Origin: Polyangiaceae bacterium
Lineage (GTDB): Bacteria > Myxococcota_A > Polyangia > Polyangiales > Polyangiaceae
Reading direction: 5' to 3'
Assembly: GCA_009781005.1 (NCBI GenBank)
Contig: WQYX01000032.1
Location: 1 to 41,937, forward strand
DNA length: 41,937 nucleotides
Positions 2,986 to 12,281 of the stretch are shown piece after piece; position 1 is the first letter of the stretch; every line of letters begins with the position of its first letter. Position numbers and translations under genes: made by a program. The notes beneath the pieces are model-generated. The model ran no database searches. It saw nothing but the letters and a program-made list of their open reading frames with translations, and was not told the DNA's origin.

Positions 2986-4458
2986 ATGACACATCGAAGC
3001 TTCTTACGCGTTGACCTTTTTTTGGCACTTTCTGGGCTCGTGGGCGTAGCCGCGTGCTCCAACGCGGCGCCGTCGGCGCCCGCACAGGCGCATCAGGAGA
3101 CCGTCCGAAGCACGTCGGCAGCCCTCGACTTGATTGGCGCGACGACGGGGCTGTTCCCGACCGGTGTCGACATTGACGGAGTAACCCGGCTTACGGATGG
3201 GGTCACGGACCCGCACTACGCTTGCGACGACGGCAGTGCGTTCGCCATTGATAAAGACCATAACGTAACGACGGGCGTCATCCACGTCTGGGCCGATCCT
3301 CCCGATCCGGGTACGTGGATCAGTTGCACGCCAGATACGAACGGTGCGGGAGACACAACGTTTCAATACACAACGACGCTTACCGTACCCGCGGGCATTC
3401 CAGCATCAACAATTGAGGTGAGCGGCAGTTGGGCATGCGACAACGAGTGCTGGATTGTGGTCAATGGCAACTCCGTTGTTGGCTCGTCTGACGCCCCTGC
3501 TAAAGCAGGCGATTCTTGCTATGCCACCATTGACCAGGACACCGACAAATTCACAATTCCTGCTGGAACGTTCCAGGATGGGGAGAACACAATCACGTTC
3601 GTTGTTTTCAACGGCGACCCCGCTAACCCGGACCCAACTGCCAATCCCACTGGTCTTCTCGTTAGCAACCTCACGGTGACCGGCGGGTGCACGGCGGACG
3701 CTAACTGCGGAGATGGGAATTTCTGCATTACGGATGATGCGAATGCGCAATATCAATACTGCGCGCCGACGGTTGCGAATGGTGAATCGTGCACGAAAGA
3801 CTCCATGTGCACGTCGGGTGTTTGCGATAACGACAGCCTCTGCGGATATGCCAGCGGTGGATCCTGCGACAAAGCAGGAACAACTTGCCGTTCTGGCGAG
3901 TGCAGCACGAATGGCACGTGCCTCATTGATGGAACCTGCGCAACCGACGCTGACTGCGGAAGCGGGAAGTATTGCAATACCAGCAACACCTGCGTGGTGC
4001 AGCACACGAATGGGGACGGACCATGCACGGATGACAACGCGGCTTCCATGTGCGTGAGCGGCGTTTGCGGCACGGACAGCAATTGCGGATACCGGGATGG
4101 CGCTTCATGCACTGGGAACAACCAGTGCCGGCCGGGCAGCTTCTGCGGGGCTGACGGCACGTGCATTCCAGCGGCAAATTGCAACGTGGATGCAGACTGC
4201 ACGGATCCGCTCACGCCAACGTGCAACACGAATACGGACAAGTGCGAAGCAGCCCCCACTGAGGACGATGCAGGAGCGACCCCTGGTACGGGGACGGATA
4301 CAGGTTCGGATGCGTCTACAACGAACAACGCCAGTCTCGGTGGCGGTGGTTCGTCGTGCACAGTGAGCTCGGGCGCTCAGCATGGTGCTGGGGTCAGCTC
4401 GGTACTTGGTTTTGCAGCGATTGCATTTTTTGGTTTGTTGCGTCGCCGCCGTGGATAG
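2986..4458 (+). CDS. Cys-rich surface lipoprotein with MYXO-CTERM-like tail (paralogue 1)
   Basis: The protein has 490 residues. ATG 2986 was chosen over an upstream GTG because it is preceded by GGTGGTGGA and begins the signal peptide directly. The signal peptide ends in a lipobox (Val-Ala-Ala-Cys, about residue 24). Residues about 45-230 form a domain with the pattern GLFPTGVD, then Asp-Pro-His-Tyr, Trp-Ile, CDNECW and NPTGLLV; I recall similar domains in PEP-CTERM surface proteins. Residues about 232-425 are tandem Cys-rich modules with repeated CGYASGGSC-like cores. An Asp/Thr/Gly linker leads to a tail of one Cys, a hydrophobic helix and RRRRG, the layout of the myxosortase MYXO-CTERM signal. 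It may be anchored at both ends. A paralogue follows 37 bp downstream in the same direction. Ligand unknown. Confidence 0.85.
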   Translation: MTHRSFLRVDLFLALSGLVGVAACSNAAPSAPAQAHQETVRSTSAALDLIGATTGLFPTGVDIDGVTRLTDGVTDPHYACDDGSAFAIDKDHNVTTGVIHVWADPPDPGTWISCTPDTNGAGDTTFQYTTTLTVPAGIPASTIEVSGSWACDNECWIVVNGNSVVGSSDAPAKAGDSCYATIDQDTDKFTIPAGTFQDGENTITFVVFNGDPANPDPTANPTGLLVSNLTVTGGCTADANCGDGNFCITDDANAQYQYCAPTVANGESCTKDSMCTSGVCDNDSLCGYASGGSCDKAGTTCRSGECSTNGTCLIDGTCATDADCGSGKYCNTSNTCVVQHTNGDGPCTDDNAASMCVSGVCGTDSNCGYRDGASCTGNNQCRPGSFCGADGTCIPAANCNVDADCTDPLTPTCNTNTDKCEAAPTEDDAGATPGTGTDTGSDASTTNNASLGGGGSSCTVSSGAQHGAGVSSVLGFAAIAFFGLLRRRRG

Positions 4459-4495
4459 GAACTATTGGTTTGGGGGGTTGTTGGAGGTCATACCT

Positions 4496-6271
4496 ATGGG
4501 ATATAGAAACTTGCTTCGTGGGAATCTTCTCTTGGCACTCTGTGGGCTTGCGGGTGTGACCGCGTGCTCCGCGTCGTCGTCAACGGCGCATCAGGAGGTA
4601 ACGAAAACAACATCATCAGCCCTCGACTTGGACCCTGCGACGCTGAAGCTGTATCCGACAGGCGTTGACGATGGCGGCAAGACGCTTGCAAATGGGGCTT
4701 CCGATACACACTACGCGGTCTCAGCCCCAGATGGGAATGATTGCACAGGTGATGTTAATGGTAATGCGTTTGCTATTGACAAAACCATAGTTCAGGCCGT
4801 CGGAACCTGGTACACCCCTAACCCTCTGACCACATGGATCAGTTGCTCGTCGGATACGCAAGCTATAGGAGACGCAACGTACCAATACGCAACGAAGTTC
4901 ACCGTACCTGCAGGTATTCCAGGAAAGACGGTTGAGGTGGATGGCTGGTGGGCGTGTGACAACGCCTGCACAATTGAAGTCAACGGTAATGCGGTCGTCC
5001 CTGATGCGGTGACTAAGGGAACCATGAATGGGGTTAGCAGTGAGCACACCTCGCTCGTCCAGTTCACAATTCCTGCAGGAAACTTTAACGATGGGGAGAA
5101 CACAATCACGTTTTTTGTTTACAACGGTGATCCTGGCAAACCGGATGCGAACCCCACCGGCCTTCTCGTAAGCGATATCACGGCAACCGGTGGGTGCAAG
5201 ATAGACGACGATTGCGCAGGCGGGACTTGCAATGTCGACACCGGCATTTGCACGATGGACGCGCAGCTCGACAACGGCTTGGGACCGTGCGCAGCCGACA
5301 CGGCTGCTGCCGATTGTAAGTCACATGTTTGCGACGCCGACAACCTTTGCGGATATGCCAGCGGCGGATCATGCACGGCCGACACTGCAAAGACGGTTTG
5401 CCGATCTGGCATGTGCAATGCGGATGGCAAGTGTCTTACCAACGAACAATGTTTGGACGACACACAGTGCAATGCCGATACGCAGTGGTGCGATACAACA
5501 ACGAACACGTGCACGGCGAAGCTGGATAACGGCCAGGATTTGCCAGGTCAGAACACGGATTGCACGGACGAAACTGGTGCGCGCTTCTGCAAGACCGGTG
5601 TTTGCGACACAACTGACCGCGCGTGCGGACTCCTGGATGACAGCCCGTGCGGGAACGCCAGCCAGTGCCGCACAGCGGACGACACCTGTGCCGATGACGG
5701 CACCGGTCAAATGGTGTGCACACCTCCGCCGCCTTGCAAGTCGGATGAAGAGTGCGCCGCAACTGGGCAATACTGCAATCTGGACACCGGGAAATGCGCG
5801 AATAAGATTGCCAATGGCAATCCCATGCCGAACGGCAGGACGTGTCCAGACGACGTAGTCGTTTGCGCAACCGCCACTTGCGGCGAGAAGGACAACACGT
5901 GCGGAGTTCCAGATGGCAACGCATGCACGCAAGACAGCGAGTGCCGCTCACCCAGCACCTGCACGAACGGCGTGTGCACAGCACCGGTAACGCCAGAGTG
6001 CACGTCGGATGACGGTTGCACGGATTCGGCAGCACCGAAGTGCAACCTGGAGACGCAGAAATGCGAGGCAGCCGCTGATGCTGGGGCGGATGCCGGGACA
6101 GACGCGTCGGTAACCGACAACTCCCCCCTCAACGTCCAAGGCAACGGTGTGTTGTCGTGCGCAGTGCGCGCAGGCACTCCGGGTGCGGCAGGCGCCGGCT
6201 CTGCTACCTTCGGTCTCGGCGCAATCGCGCTCGTCGGTCTGCTCCGAAGGCGCCGTAATCAGGCATCCTGA
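4496..6271 (+). CDS. Cys-rich surface lipoprotein with MYXO-CTERM-like tail (paralogue 2)
   Basis: The 591-residue paralogue of the preceding gene starts at ATG 4496, with GGAGG about 10 bases upstream. The lipobox is Val-Thr-Ala-Cys (about residue 24). The N-terminal domain keeps the same landmarks (LYPTGVD, Thr-His-Tyr, WISC, WWACDNAC, NPTGLLV). It carries more Cys-rich modules than paralogue 1, with the shared core CGYASGGSC and extra units such as CRTADDTCADDG, so the two differ mainly in repeat number. An Ala-Asp-Ala-Gly linker precedes a conserved Cys, a hydrophobic helix and RRRR. The two genes probably form one transcription unit that arose by tandem duplication. Likely exposed on the outer membrane or shed; function unknown. 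Confidence 0.85.
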   Translation: MGYRNLLRGNLLLALCGLAGVTACSASSSTAHQEVTKTTSSALDLDPATLKLYPTGVDDGGKTLANGASDTHYAVSAPDGNDCTGDVNGNAFAIDKTIVQAVGTWYTPNPLTTWISCSSDTQAIGDATYQYATKFTVPAGIPGKTVEVDGWWACDNACTIEVNGNAVVPDAVTKGTMNGVSSEHTSLVQFTIPAGNFNDGENTITFFVYNGDPGKPDANPTGLLVSDITATGGCKIDDDCAGGTCNVDTGICTMDAQLDNGLGPCAADTAAADCKSHVCDADNLCGYASGGSCTADTAKTVCRSGMCNADGKCLTNEQCLDDTQCNADTQWCDTTTNTCTAKLDNGQDLPGQNTDCTDETGARFCKTGVCDTTDRACGLLDDSPCGNASQCRTADDTCADDGTGQMVCTPPPPCKSDEECAATGQYCNLDTGKCANKIANGNPMPNGRTCPDDVVVCATATCGEKDNTCGVPDGNACTQDSECRSPSTCTNGVCTAPVTPECTSDDGCTDSAAPKCNLETQKCEAAADAGADAGTDASVTDNSPLNVQGNGVLSCAVRAGTPGAAGAGSATFGLGAIALVGLLRRRRNQAS

Positions 6272-6310
6272 GGTGCGCGGGCGCGCCTAAGACGCGCCTA
6301 AAGTGCGATC

Positions 6311-6354
6311 GGGAAGAGGATTGGATGTCTTGAACGGACAGCCATCCTCTTCCC
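6311..6354 (+). terminator. Hairpin after the Cys-rich pair
   Basis: GGGAAGAGGAT pairs perfectly with ATCCTCTTCCC (11 bp) across a 22-nt loop, 40 bp after the second Cys-rich gene. It lacks a clear T-run (AGTCGGTTGT follows), so it is a weak intrinsic terminator candidate or a 3' stabilising structure. The remaining ~200 bp up to the next gene shows no other gene. Confidence 0.4.
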
Positions 6355-6555
6355 AGTCGGTTGTATGTGAGTTCTCATCCGGAAACGTCGTGACGCCGAT
6401 CGACGATCTGCGGCGCGCAGTAGTTTCCGGATGGGGACGATGTAGGGGTGATTACACTTGTGAGCTTGCTTTGCAGGCGCCACGGGTTCTAATCTTGGCA
6501 CGTTGCGGATGGACCGCCGGCATTGCACCAAAAGTTCCTTAGTGAGGTTTGCATC

Positions 6556-7927: not shown

Positions 7928-8227
7928 CTACAGCTTCGGTGTTCGACCCCGACGTGCGCCCCACACCGTATAAATAGTGATTACTTCGCGTTCGCCGTCC
8001 ACAACGTAGTAGACGTGCTGCGCGCTTGCTGGCAGCAGAATCCGGCGTACGATTCTGTCCTCGATGTATTGATATTCGAGCCCCAATGTTGGGTGCACCT
8101 TCAACTGATCAATTGCGGCTTGCAGCTCGTCGTCGAAGAGTGTTGGTGCGGCGGGTCGGTTTTCCCGCCACCATTTCGCCACCGCCTTCACACGCCGCTG
8201 TGCCCTCGGCGAAAAGCGGGCTTTCAC
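7928..8227 (-). CDS. RelE/ParE-superfamily toxin
   Basis: The protein has 99 residues, typical of the superfamily. Its N-terminal helices (FSPRAQRRVKAVAKWW) are followed by the beta-sheet core (RIVRRILLPASAQHVYYVV, then EREVITIYTVW) and the C-terminal Ala-Arg-Arg-Gly. The family includes mRNA-cleaving RelE and gyrase-poisoning ParE. The sequence has no clear RelE catalytic set, so the ParE side is more likely, but this is not certain. It overlaps the upstream antitoxin by 4 bp (ATGA), the usual translational coupling of such modules. A decayed copy lies at 180-300. Confidence 0.8.
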   Translation of the reverse strand: MKARFSPRAQRRVKAVAKWWRENRPAAPTLFDDELQAAIDQLKVHPTLGLEYQYIEDRIVRRILLPASAQHVYYVVDGEREVITIYTVWGARRGRTPKL

Positions 8228-8475
8228 TTCATCGCTCGCAGTTCGGCAAAGACGATATCCGCGTCAACGAGCTCGCCAGATTCTGCCTCAGCAATGGAGG
8301 CTTTTAGCTCCGCGTGAAGCGCCTCGCGCTCCTCGTCGTCGAGGTCGTCCCCCCGCTCGCTTAGCACCTCATCGAGCGGCACGAGCTCGACCACCTCACC
8401 CTCAGGCAGGTCTGTTGGCTCATCGAGCACGAGGCGTCCCATTTTCACGTGAGCTTTCAGCGGCTGCATGGTCAT
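8224..8475 (-). CDS. Antitoxin of the RelE/ParE-type pair
   Basis: This acidic 83-residue protein is first in a two-gene operon with the toxin. The N-terminal strand pattern (LKAHVKMGRLVLDEPTDLPEG) resembles small antitoxins that pair with RelE/ParE toxins and bind DNA through a short beta-rich N-terminus. The acidic C-terminal helices (DDLDDEEREALHAELKASI) would wrap the toxin. It would neutralise the toxin and probably repress its own promoter. The homologous gene in the left copy is killed by a 1-bp deletion near codon 5. Confidence 0.75.
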   Translation of the reverse strand: MTMQPLKAHVKMGRLVLDEPTDLPEGEVVELVPLDEVLSERGDDLDDEEREALHAELKASIAEAESGELVDADIVFAELRAMK

Positions 8476-8570: not shown

Positions 8571-10204
8571 TTAGTTCCAGATGCGCGAGAGCACTATAAC
8601 GCGTTGGAGCGTCGCAGTGCCGGGCGTCGCCCCTGATGCAATAATGATCCGCCCGTCCTTCTGTACACGTGCAGTGCATATCGCAGGATACAAAGAAAAG
8701 CCTATCGGAAGAGGGATGGTCGCAGTCCCGTTGGTTCCGAATGACGTATCAAGCACGCCAACGGTTGTAAAACGCGAAACGGACACGAGTGACCATGTGG
8801 CGCTTGTCACAAGGAGGCGGTTTTGATCGTCAAGGGAGATGTCTGGAAACCACGGGCTATTAACCGACAATGTGCCGTGGACGCCAAACGTCGTATCGAT
8901 GTCTCCTAATACGGTAAAGGAGGTAATCGAATAAAGCTCGTTGGAGGCGCTGTCTTTGAGCGTTGAGATGAGTCGACCATTCGGAACGAGCTGCAAGTCT
9001 CGTGGTGTTATTAGTGACGCTGCCGGATTTGGGAATAACGCTCGCCCGGGCGTTCCCGCTTTTCCAAAGAATGTGTCGTAGGCGCCTTTGGCGGTGAGCT
9101 GCAAGATGGCGTAGCCGCTCTCGCCGGTTGCGGAATTGCCATAGGTTCCGATGATCGCAATTCTACCGTCCGGTCGCACGGCGATCTCCGTGCTCGTGAA
9201 TGAGTCCATGCCCGAGAGGAGCCCCGCGGTCATAACACCTTGCTTGCCGAACGCTGTATCGGCTTCGCCGGTGTTCGTAAGTTTCGTGATTCCAATCATG
9301 TTGGCACCCACGGCGTTCGTAGCACTGAAAACCATGAAGGCGCCGCCGTCCGATGCAGATGTCATTGCCGGAATGGAAACGACCGTTATTCCACTTGGGG
9401 GATTGATGGGAGTGAATGAGCCATCCGTTGCTCCGTTGGCAGGGATCACGATGTATTGACCAGCGGATCCGATGACGATGCCGCCACTTGGAAGAAGTTC
9501 TACAGGGTTCAGCAATTTCTGAAACGAGACGGCCCCATTGTTGCCGTACGTCGTATCAAGCAAACCCTCTGGGTCGAGTTGCCTAACGCGGGTGCCACTG
9601 TTGCCCACTCCTATAATAGGGCTACCTACCACAAAGATTCGATCGTCGTTCGACACGAAAACATCGAACGGACTCGCCGGCACTCCAAATACGTCGACGA
9701 ATTGGCCACCCGTCGCGAACGTCGTATCTAAGCTCCCCGATGGACCGCGCACGAAGAGGGGTAAATCCGCTCTTGCATAGGCCGTGGCGTCGAGTGCATG
9801 CCCTTCAATCCATGTGTTGTCCAAGGCTCCTTGGGGTACATCCTGTGAAACAGTGATTTGTAGATCTCCGGAGTCTACGCCTCGGACAATGGTCAGCGGA
9901 TTGGCAGCCACCCCTGTTGGTGCTTCCTTGAGGGCCACGGAGATATCACTCTTTTTTGGTCCGCTGCGTGTGAGAGTGATGGAAATGGTGGTGGTTGTTC
10001 CTTGAACCAGGCGCGGAATCGTCCCGAGGTTGAAGGAGAATACCTCATCTGGGTTCGGCGGGGTTACGTATACGACTCCCGAGTCCCTCCGTCCGATTCC
10101 GCCTCGGTGAATTTGGCACAGCCGGCGCCAGCAGCAAAGATGGCGGAATAGCAGCACCCGGCAGCAAGCAAGGTGAAGAGAACAGATTTATGAACGCGAC
10201 GCAT
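8571..10204 (-). pseudogene. Delta-60 repeat lipoprotein, frameshifted
   Basis: This is the paralogue of 694-2337. The true start is the ATG at 10204, preceded by GGAGG. It encodes the same signal peptide and lipobox (FAAGAGC) and then runs into a stop after about 45 codons. The mature part (PPNPDEVFSFNLGTIPRLVQ onward, about 500 codons with six delta-60 repeats such as LDTTYGNNG, IDTTFGVHG and LDTSFGTNG) is open but in another frame. The shift lies near 10080-10095, where this copy differs by a net 2 bp from the left copy. The ATG at 10157 in the open frame only reads the signal region out of frame and would not give a secreted protein. A sequencing error or programmed frameshift cannot be excluded. 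Confidence 0.75.
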
Positions 10205-10844: not shown

Positions 10845-12281
10845 ATGAACACGACTTGTCATGAATTTCTTCGAGATACATTACGAATCACTGGGTTGGC
10901 ATTTCCGTTGATCTTGCTGACCGCAACCGCTGCTCCCGCTTGCTCGGGATCGGACGCGTCTTCGGATGAAGAGGAGCCGTCTTCGGCGGAGAGTATGAGC
11001 CAGACGGGGACTCCCAATTGTTCCGCACTGATCTCCAGCCCCGTTTATCAAGTTATCAATCCAGCCACCAAAGCGAATTTGCTTACATCTTCGCAGAGTG
11101 AGGCAAGCAAAGCGGCTGCCTCGGGATTTACACAAAATCAGGGCACGCCGTTCTATGCGTCCATGGCGAGCGCGACTGGGCTCGTGGGCGCGCATCGGAT
11201 GTTCAACGCCAAAAGCAACGACTCTTTTTGGACAATCAGTTCGAACGAAATCGCGTCTGCTGTCACGAATTACGGTTATGTCGATCAGGGCATCGGCTTT
11301 TACGTATCCGCCACAACGGCGAGCTGTGCGCAGCCCGTCTATCGTTTCGTATCCGGGGCAATGCACCGTTTTGCGGTAAGTCAAACGGATCAGGCTGCTC
11401 TTACGGCCGGCGGATGGAAGGCCGAAGGGATCATGTTTTATGGGGGGATCCCCCCGGTCGCCAACCCGCCCGCGCAAGATGCAGGAACGACCAACCCGCC
11501 CGCGCAAGATGCAGGAGTGGACAATTCATCCCCTCCAACGATTCCAGGTTACACACTGGTGTTCAACGACGAATTCAACGGGACGAGCATCGACCGAAAT
11601 AATTGGGAGATCAACAACGGCTTCAACTACGCGAACGACGAGCTTGAATGTTATACGAATAGAGCGCAAAATGCTTATATCGAGAACGGCAGCCTAGTCA
11701 TCCAGGGGCTCAAAGAGAACTATCAATGCGCCAATGCCTTAAATGGCAGTTACGCGGCCCAGTACACCTCTGCCAAGTTGGATACGAAGGGCAAGCACAG
11801 CTTCTTGTATGGCAAGATTCAGATGCGCGCGAAGCTGCCGTACGGCAAAGGCATGTGGCCCGCGTTCTGGACACTGGGATCCAATATTGATCAAGTAAAT
11901 TGGCCTTCGTGCGGCGAGATTGACATCCTGGAGCTGATTGGTGGAGGCAAGAATGATTCGATTGCGACCTCCAACGTCCACTACCCGGTCAATGGCGGCA
12001 GCAATCCCGTCGCGGGGAGCCAATACTCTATCTCGCCCCAGACGTTCGCGAACGACTACCACATTTTTGCCGCGGATTGGGACGCGAATCAAATTCAATT
12101 TTCGGTCGATGGAAACATATATTATACCGTAAACATCAAAGGAGTGACCTGGCTACATAACCCTCAGTACCTCTTGTTGAATCTCGCCATCGGCGGAACT
12201 TGGCCTGGTAACCCCGACGCAACCACCGTCTTCCCACAAAAATATTACATTGATTGGGTGCGCGTGTACCAGGCGCAATAG
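10845..12281 (+). CDS. GH16 family beta-glucanase lipoprotein
   Basis: The protein has 478 residues; ATG 10845 is preceded by GGAGA. It begins with a signal peptide and lipobox (Ala-Pro-Ala-Cys, about residue 33) and an acidic linker. Residues about 60-205 are a domain resembling DUF5648 (PVYRFVSGAMHRFAVSQTD and the terminal EGIMFYGG), often attached to secreted hydrolases. An Asn-Pro-Pro-Ala-Gln-Asp-Ala-Gly linker is duplicated. Residues about 230-478 are a glycoside hydrolase family 16 domain. Its signature WPSCGEIDILE places the predicted nucleophile at Glu358 and the acid/base at Glu363. GH16 enzymes cut beta-1,3 or beta-1,3-1,4 glucans and related polymers; exact substrate is not readable. 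It fits extracellular polymer digestion from the cell surface. Confidence 0.9.
   Translation: MNTTCHEFLRDTLRITGLAFPLILLTATAAPACSGSDASSDEEEPSSAESMSQTGTPNCSALISSPVYQVINPATKANLLTSSQSEASKAAASGFTQNQGTPFYASMASATGLVGAHRMFNAKSNDSFWTISSNEIASAVTNYGYVDQGIGFYVSATTASCAQPVYRFVSGAMHRFAVSQTDQAALTAGGWKAEGIMFYGGIPPVANPPAQDAGTTNPPAQDAGVDNSSPPTIPGYTLVFNDEFNGTSIDRNNWEINNGFNYANDELECYTNRAQNAYIENGSLVIQGLKENYQCANALNGSYAAQYTSAKLDTKGKHSFLYGKIQMRAKLPYGKGMWPAFWTLGSNIDQVNWPSCGEIDILELIGGGKNDSIATSNVHYPVNGGSNPVAGSQYSISPQTFANDYHIFAADWDANQIQFSVDGNIYYTVNIKGVTWLHNPQYLLLNLAIGGTWPGNPDATTVFPQKYYIDWVRVYQAQ
11461..11516 (+). repeat. 30-bp tandem duplication in the GH16 linker
   Basis: Two near-identical 26-bp units beginning CCAACCCGCCCGCG are offset by exactly 30 bp, doubling a ten-residue linker between the N-terminal domain and the catalytic domain while keeping the frame. 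Confidence 0.85.

Follow-up and report, generated by a model that had tools for sequence, protein, structure and literature searches.

Tandem cysteine-rich proteins with a lipobox at the N-terminus and a divergent MYXO-CTERM-like tail at the C-terminus in a Polyangiaceae bacterium

The window analysed here, a stretch of 41,937 nucleotides, is contig C32 (WQYX01000032.1) of the 4.77-Mb genome (199 contigs; assembly GCA_009781005.1) of a Polyangiaceae bacterium, labelled G000 in the following. Between positions 2986 and 6271 it carries two tandem genes on the plus strand, A and B; 37 bases separate the stop of the first from the ATG of the second. Their products are paralogous, sharing 51% identity in alignment A1 (44% by BLAST over 432 columns), and have a common layout consisting, in order, of a signal peptide, a lipobox cysteine (Cys24), a head of about 180 residues, Cys-rich modules, a disordered linker in which Gly, Ser, Asn, Asp and Ala are abundant, and a tail. 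A first-pass annotation of this DNA had described tandem Cys-rich proteins with a lipobox cysteine near residue 24 and a tail made of a cysteine, a hydrophobic helix and RRRR, differing mainly in module number. This description stands: Cys24 lies within VAAC in A and VTAC in B, helix and RRRR follow Cys458 in A and Cys555 in B, and B has more modules. The features are as follows.

2986-4458, plus strand: gene A, 490 aa, ATG at 2986, stop at 4458; dual-signal Cys-rich putative surface protein
3055-3057, plus strand: lipobox Cys24 of A (VAAC); Cys present in 10/10 paralogues with both ends visible
3148-3681, plus strand: head of A, approximately residues 55-232, predicted galactose-binding-like jelly roll (AlphaFold2 model, Foldseek, VIA-align)
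3688-4260, plus strand: disulfide-rich modules of A, approximately residues 235-425, Dickkopf_N-like (PF04706 match and AlphaFold2 model)
4357-4455, plus strand: tail of A, Cys458 (4357-4359), hydrophobic helix and RRRR; divergent MYXO-CTERM-like
4496-6271, plus strand: gene B, 591 aa, ATG at 4496 preceded by GGAGGT; dual-signal Cys-rich putative surface protein
4565-4567, plus strand: lipobox Cys24 of B (VTAC; sequence, family alignment)
4649-5191, plus strand: head of B, limits approximate (alignment with the head of A)
5195-6070, plus strand: disulfide-rich modules of B, more numerous than in A, limits approximate (sequence, family alignment)
6158-6268, plus strand: tail of B, Cys555 (6158-6160), hydrophobic helix and RRRR; TIGR03901 score 13.5 bits, cut-off 20
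6307-6358, plus strand: strong hairpin shortly after the end of B; the segment 6272-6370 folds at -48.1 kcal/mol (z -5.15)

A protein search of 58 genomes gave matches at E <= 1e-5 in 12. Matches covering the head were confined to G000 itself and to a genome of the same genus, G009 (metagenome-assembled genome Emb289P4bin44, Polyangiaceae bacterium; Emb289 is a code for the termite Embiratermes neotenicus, PMC7024585), and the remaining genomes matched in the Cys-rich modules. The family set used below comprises 12 sequences with manually chosen starts: A, B and the relatives on contigs C131, C55 and C46 of G000, together with seven from G009. The cysteine stands in a lipobox context in 12/12 despite variable flanks (VAAC, VTAC, VIAC, VVAC, IAAC and AAGC), which rules out a chance lipobox in Cys-rich proteins for the family, an argument that carries less weight for individual proteins in the phylum sample described below. 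Two sequences were excluded from the count of both ends: L050 (C55), which has a lipobox and whose C-terminus lies past the contig end, and L048 (G000:C46, 4019-4912), which has a lipobox and Cys-rich modules, with neither head nor tail. An open frame that follows L048 on its contig resembles dihydroorotase, as read from its translation. In the ten G000 and G009 paralogues with both ends visible, lipobox Cys and tail Cys are both kept (10/10); G000 and G009 members share 33-74% identity. The pairing of the signals is therefore not due to chance.

The tails of A and B follow, at the extreme C-terminus, the order required of a MYXO-CTERM signal (TIGR03901, curated cut-off 20 bits), i.e. an invariant Cys, a hydrophobic helix and an Arg-rich end. 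They carry one Cys and not the GCGC form; single-Cys tails above the cut-off exist in G000, where 28 TIGR03901 places were listed and 7 pass. Within the A/B family itself, two dual proteins of G009 (C28:36020 and 38147, lipoboxes VVAC and IAAC) pass with 21.5 and 20.6 bits. By strict criteria the family includes dual members, and the A and B tails have drifted. A and B were ruled out as full TIGR03901 members, the cut-off being missed, and were retained as divergent tails of a family with passing paralogues. A hidden Markov model (HMM) built from 80 stronger tails picks up the three QM-type paralogues (12.7 to 16.9 bits), to which C28:36020 and 38147 belong, and profile-profile comparison of ten family tails with the 80 stronger ones gave a weak match (global probability 46.7; local 89.0 over 12 columns). 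In an array of G009 (C28:36000-44900; L046, L264), a near-identical tail is found on lipobox-type proteins and on proteins with a plain signal cleaved by signal peptidase I (SPI-type; C28:42151 and C28:39826), which suggests that the tail acts as a portable, independent module.

The occurrence of both signals in one protein extends well beyond A and B. Signal types were called by eye and by a consensus rule ([LVI][ASTVIG][GAS]C near residue 24, positive n-region, hydrophobic h-region), by which both A (VAAC24) and B (VTAC24) are called lipoproteins (LIPO) of the signal peptidase II type. The rule errs both ways, calling L064 (G000:C13) LIPO where cleavage between AHA and D fits SPI better, and missing the lipoboxes seen by eye in C16, C15:56932 and C147:1686. 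In G000, 25 frames were read from the 28 places and 20 real tails kept, leaving out five hydrophobic stretches without the Cys signature, B itself and two weak places. By eye these comprise 8 lipobox, 8 SPI-type and 4 unclear proteins; by rule 6, 6 and 8, one of the six lipobox calls being false. G009 has 14 places, of which 12 were kept (two lacked the Cys signature), with 5 lipobox, 6 SPI and 1 without call by rule, and 7 and 5 by eye. For the phylum, 57 genomes were searched and 45 had matches; among the 80 best-listed proteins, at most three per genome and from 34 genomes, the rule found 13 lipobox, 47 SPI and 20 without call, and 11/34 genomes have one or more dual proteins; the strongest tails are over-represented here. 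Dual proteins outside the A/B family are trypsin-like proteins, a GH25 protein and a polysaccharide deacetylase that also has TNFR-like modules, and both signals are kept on both sides of four G000/G009 pairs (including C131-L051) with 74, 72, 68 and 53% identity. Over 441 kb of G000, 38 lipoproteins and 72 SPI-type proteins occur among 343 called genes, i.e. lipoproteins make up about one third of simple exported proteins; the six tailed genes in the same 441 kb are 4 LIPO (two being A and B), 1 SPI and 1 unclear. Genes of other than SPI type carry tails too. The idea that only the A-B pair has the double signal was rejected on the strength of the other dual proteins in G000, G009 and the phylum sample, and the combination, which the first-pass annotation had called unusual, is common in the genus. 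No protein with both signals is described in the literature covered (PMC11980579, PMC3325183, PMC12802150, PMC13393428, PMC8241124, PMC8546572), this coverage being incomplete and an earlier description in print possible.

Enzymes for processing both ends are encoded by G000. There are seven CPBP places in this genome, of which six were scanned (L015 is the unscanned seventh). The CPBP protein on contig C111 is the myxosortase MrtC (NF040594; 279.4 bits, cut-off 195), so that the search for a myxosortase proposed at the outset yielded one; none of the other five scanned proteins reaches a myxosortase cut-off. Each of the two genomes encodes three Lgt (L214-L216 on G000 contigs C130, C139 and C82; L217-L219 in G009) and one LspA. 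Lnt and GspD of G000 score above their cut-offs, and PilQ is also present.

Direct observations comprise the two signals, the way they are conserved together and the occurrence of the enzyme genes; the following model is built on them. A lipoprotein signal peptide would direct A and B to Sec for secretion; Lgt would put diacylglycerol on Cys24, LspA would cut in front of this residue, and a third chain may come from Lnt. The tail helix, with RRRR in the cytoplasm, would keep the C-terminal end in the inner membrane until MrtC cuts next to the tail Cys, which, should the published MYXO-CTERM model be right, would already carry a lipid at that point. Passage through the type II secretion system (T2SS), a place at the cell surface and a ligand would complete the picture. 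We assign a probability of roughly 0.47 to the full model, in which N-terminal lipidation at Cys24 is combined with C-terminal trimming by MrtC and a lipid on the tail Cys. Its parts differ in strength: the lipobox is very probably used, the tail is probably cut by MrtC, and a lipid at the tail Cys is only slightly favoured, these three estimates not being independent of one another. The double-ended anchoring proposed in the first-pass annotation thus has in its favour the co-conservation of the signals in the family, their retention in unrelated dual proteins and the genes for MrtC, three Lgt, LspA and Lnt; lipid anchoring at both ends is itself an inference.

Several results weigh against this model. 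Scanning A and B with hmmscan against NCBIfam matched no family, and in the six-frame TIGR03901 search B reached 13.5 bits and A was not listed at E <= 10. This is an outcome that the first-pass annotation had named as refuting its reading, although the paralogous dual proteins given above pass the cut-off. The HMM built from the 80 stronger tails missed those of A and B. No GspN above cut-off was found in G000, and Acinetobacter lipoproteins need GspN for T2SS passage (PMC12802150). The lipid on the MYXO-CTERM Cys is itself a hypothesis, even for TraA of Myxococcus xanthus (PMC11980579). The counts of cysteines speak on both sides. Were the two signal cysteines reserved for lipids, those remaining between them would be expected to pair, giving an even count, as is the case in 9/10 family members, 12/12 further dual proteins called by eye in the genus and 10/13 of the phylum sample, or 31/35 dual proteins overall. 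The sole odd family member is A, with 33 interior cysteines. Parity is a weak discriminator, since it often holds in SPI-type tailed proteins (8/13 in the genus and 33/47 in the phylum sample) and the sequences counted are related. Neither end Cys alone seems to join the disulfide network, and parity is no proof of lipid, as the two end cysteines might both be unmodified or might form a bond between themselves.

Among other explanations, the one that survives best, although we consider it unlikely, is that the N-terminal lipid is the sole lasting anchor and that MrtC removes the tail leaving no lipid, the tail serving for retention in the inner membrane and hand-over to the T2SS. The C-terminal lipid is unproven, cleavage without modification has been named possible but unlikely (PMC11980579), and the lipobox would be enough as an anchor by itself, L048 being a relative with a lipobox and no tail. 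However, TraA and MXAN_4924, which have type I signals, are surface-anchored via the tail in the published model (PMC3325183, PMC11980579), so that such a tail can anchor alone, and the tail Cys is invariant in the family. It is improbable that the tail is an uncut C-terminal transmembrane anchor, with the proteins staying in the inner membrane and the N-terminal lipid as an addition: the sub-cut-off scores of A and B and their one Cys in place of the GCGC form would fit this, but paralogous tails of the same Cys-helix-RRRR layout pass the cut-off, as do single-Cys tails of G000, and MrtC is present. Least probable of all is a plain Sec/SPI front signal with anchoring only by the processed tail, as in TraA, for although V-A-A and V-T-A before the Cys also fit SPI rules (VAA before C fits A-x-A) and many tailed proteins of the genus are SPI-type, Cys is at +1 in all 12 family sequences despite their varied flanks, Cys follows the core motif in 24/290 core-plus-residue counts over 112 tailed proteins against a general Cys frequency of 1.8%, and an unpaired structural Cys24 would favour an odd interior count where 9/10 are even.

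The AlphaFold2 model of A (11-sequence alignment) has a mean predicted local distance difference test score (pLDDT) of 67. Its head (about 55-232) is rich in beta structure, the modules up to about 425 are modelled better, and confidence is low from 427. The head gave a best Foldseek E of 3.5e-4 to CBM36, with many other CBM and GH2 matches, and VIA-align Z values of up to 8.2, which is middling. As modelled, it resembles galactose-binding-like jelly rolls, e.g. CBM36, CBM4, CBM35 and CBM61. Dickkopf_N (PF04706) matches A in two stretches (26.8 bits, Pfam cut-off 25); the Pfam scan gave no such match in B, and the family profile found no match among PDB sequences.

The hairpin at 6307-6358 possibly marks the end of an A-B transcription unit; it was absent from the output of a scan for T-run terminators. 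The next gene downstream of B encodes an SMP-30-like lipoprotein. The A-B pair is flanked by genes for two similar delta-60-repeat-like proteins on the minus strand (694-2337 and 8571-10157), the first with a lipoprotein-like start. Elsewhere in the window, a ParE-type toxin gene (PF05016) is located at 7928-8475, adjoining a small upstream gene that may encode its antitoxin, and a secreted glycoside hydrolase family 16 protein with DUF5648 is encoded at 10845-12281.

The interpretation given in the first-pass annotation is plausible and reaches further than was supposed there. In the published MYXO-CTERM model, the C-terminal lipid anchors proteins whose front signal is cut off, and dual proteins depart from it. 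If the lipobox already provides an anchor, the tail must give something else, such as surface routing, two-point holding or timing. It is tempting to speculate, with somewhat less assurance than for A and B alone, that myxobacteria have a class of proteins lipidated at both termini (jelly-roll receptors, trypsin-like proteases, GH25 enzymes and deacetylases), which would combine lipobox and LspA with MYXO-CTERM and myxosortase, perhaps served by one expanded Lgt family acting in opposite membrane orientation, and would stand as two-footed arches on the outer membrane. Lipidation of both ends, if true, would make them bacterial lipoproteins with two feet, one per terminus. For the acyltransferase of MYXO-CTERM proteins, Lgt is the leading candidate, a hypothesis of the authors of PMC11980579, and dual proteins make this question testable: as one dual protein has a known Lgt site and a presumed one, both lipids can be compared within one molecule. 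A tree was built of 40 Lgt sequences taken from 20 genomes; its clade that includes the G000:C82 protein is present in 12/12 sampled genomes with a myxosortase and in 2/8 without, a pattern confounded by lineage, the genomes without myxosortase being mostly of related families. Three genomes rich in MYXO-CTERM proteins have a single Lgt. The Lgt expansion is a possible lead to the MYXO-CTERM acyltransferase, and a lead only.

Parts of this arrangement have counterparts in known systems. PulA and InvL, lipoproteins that the T2SS sends to the surface (PMC12802150), share the lipobox anchor with A and B; they differ in that the parts of that paper covered mention no C-terminal sorting tail on either, and in that no GspN above cut-off was found in G000. 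VesB and VesC, the GlyGly-CTERM proteases of Vibrio cholerae, carry a tripartite C-terminal tag that is an independent module on trypsin-like proteases (PMC13393428), and the genus of A and B also tags trypsin-like proteins; the enzyme for VesB and VesC is a rhombosortase instead of a myxosortase, and the covered text of the same source describes no lipobox for them. The MYXO-CTERM/myxosortase system (TIGR03901; MrtX, MrtC) agrees with A and B in the tail, with Cys, hydrophobic helix and Arg-rich end, and with MrtC encoded in G000. Within it, 35 M. xanthus MYXO-CTERM proteins have N-terminal signal peptides, and MrtX cuts the TraA tail in dependence on the TraA cysteines (PMC11980579). Compared with this system, A and B have sub-cut-off tails and add a lipobox, which is absent from the processing model as set out in the covered parts of PMC11980579. 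TraA (MXAN_6895) and MXAN_4924, its close paralogue with a type I signal and a 'very similar domain architecture' (PMC3325183), differ from A and B in the signal type, in the PA14 head and in the TIGR04201 repeats; neither PA14 nor TIGR04201 matches A or B at E <= 10 (Pfam, NCBIfam), and no traB-like OmpA gene follows B. What the two M. xanthus proteins, which are processed by myxosortase, share with A and B is the sequence of parts: a signal peptide, a lectin-like all-beta head (for A as modelled), a stalk of Cys-rich repeats and a C-terminal MYXO-CTERM tail (PMC3325183, PMC11980579), in divergent form in A and B.

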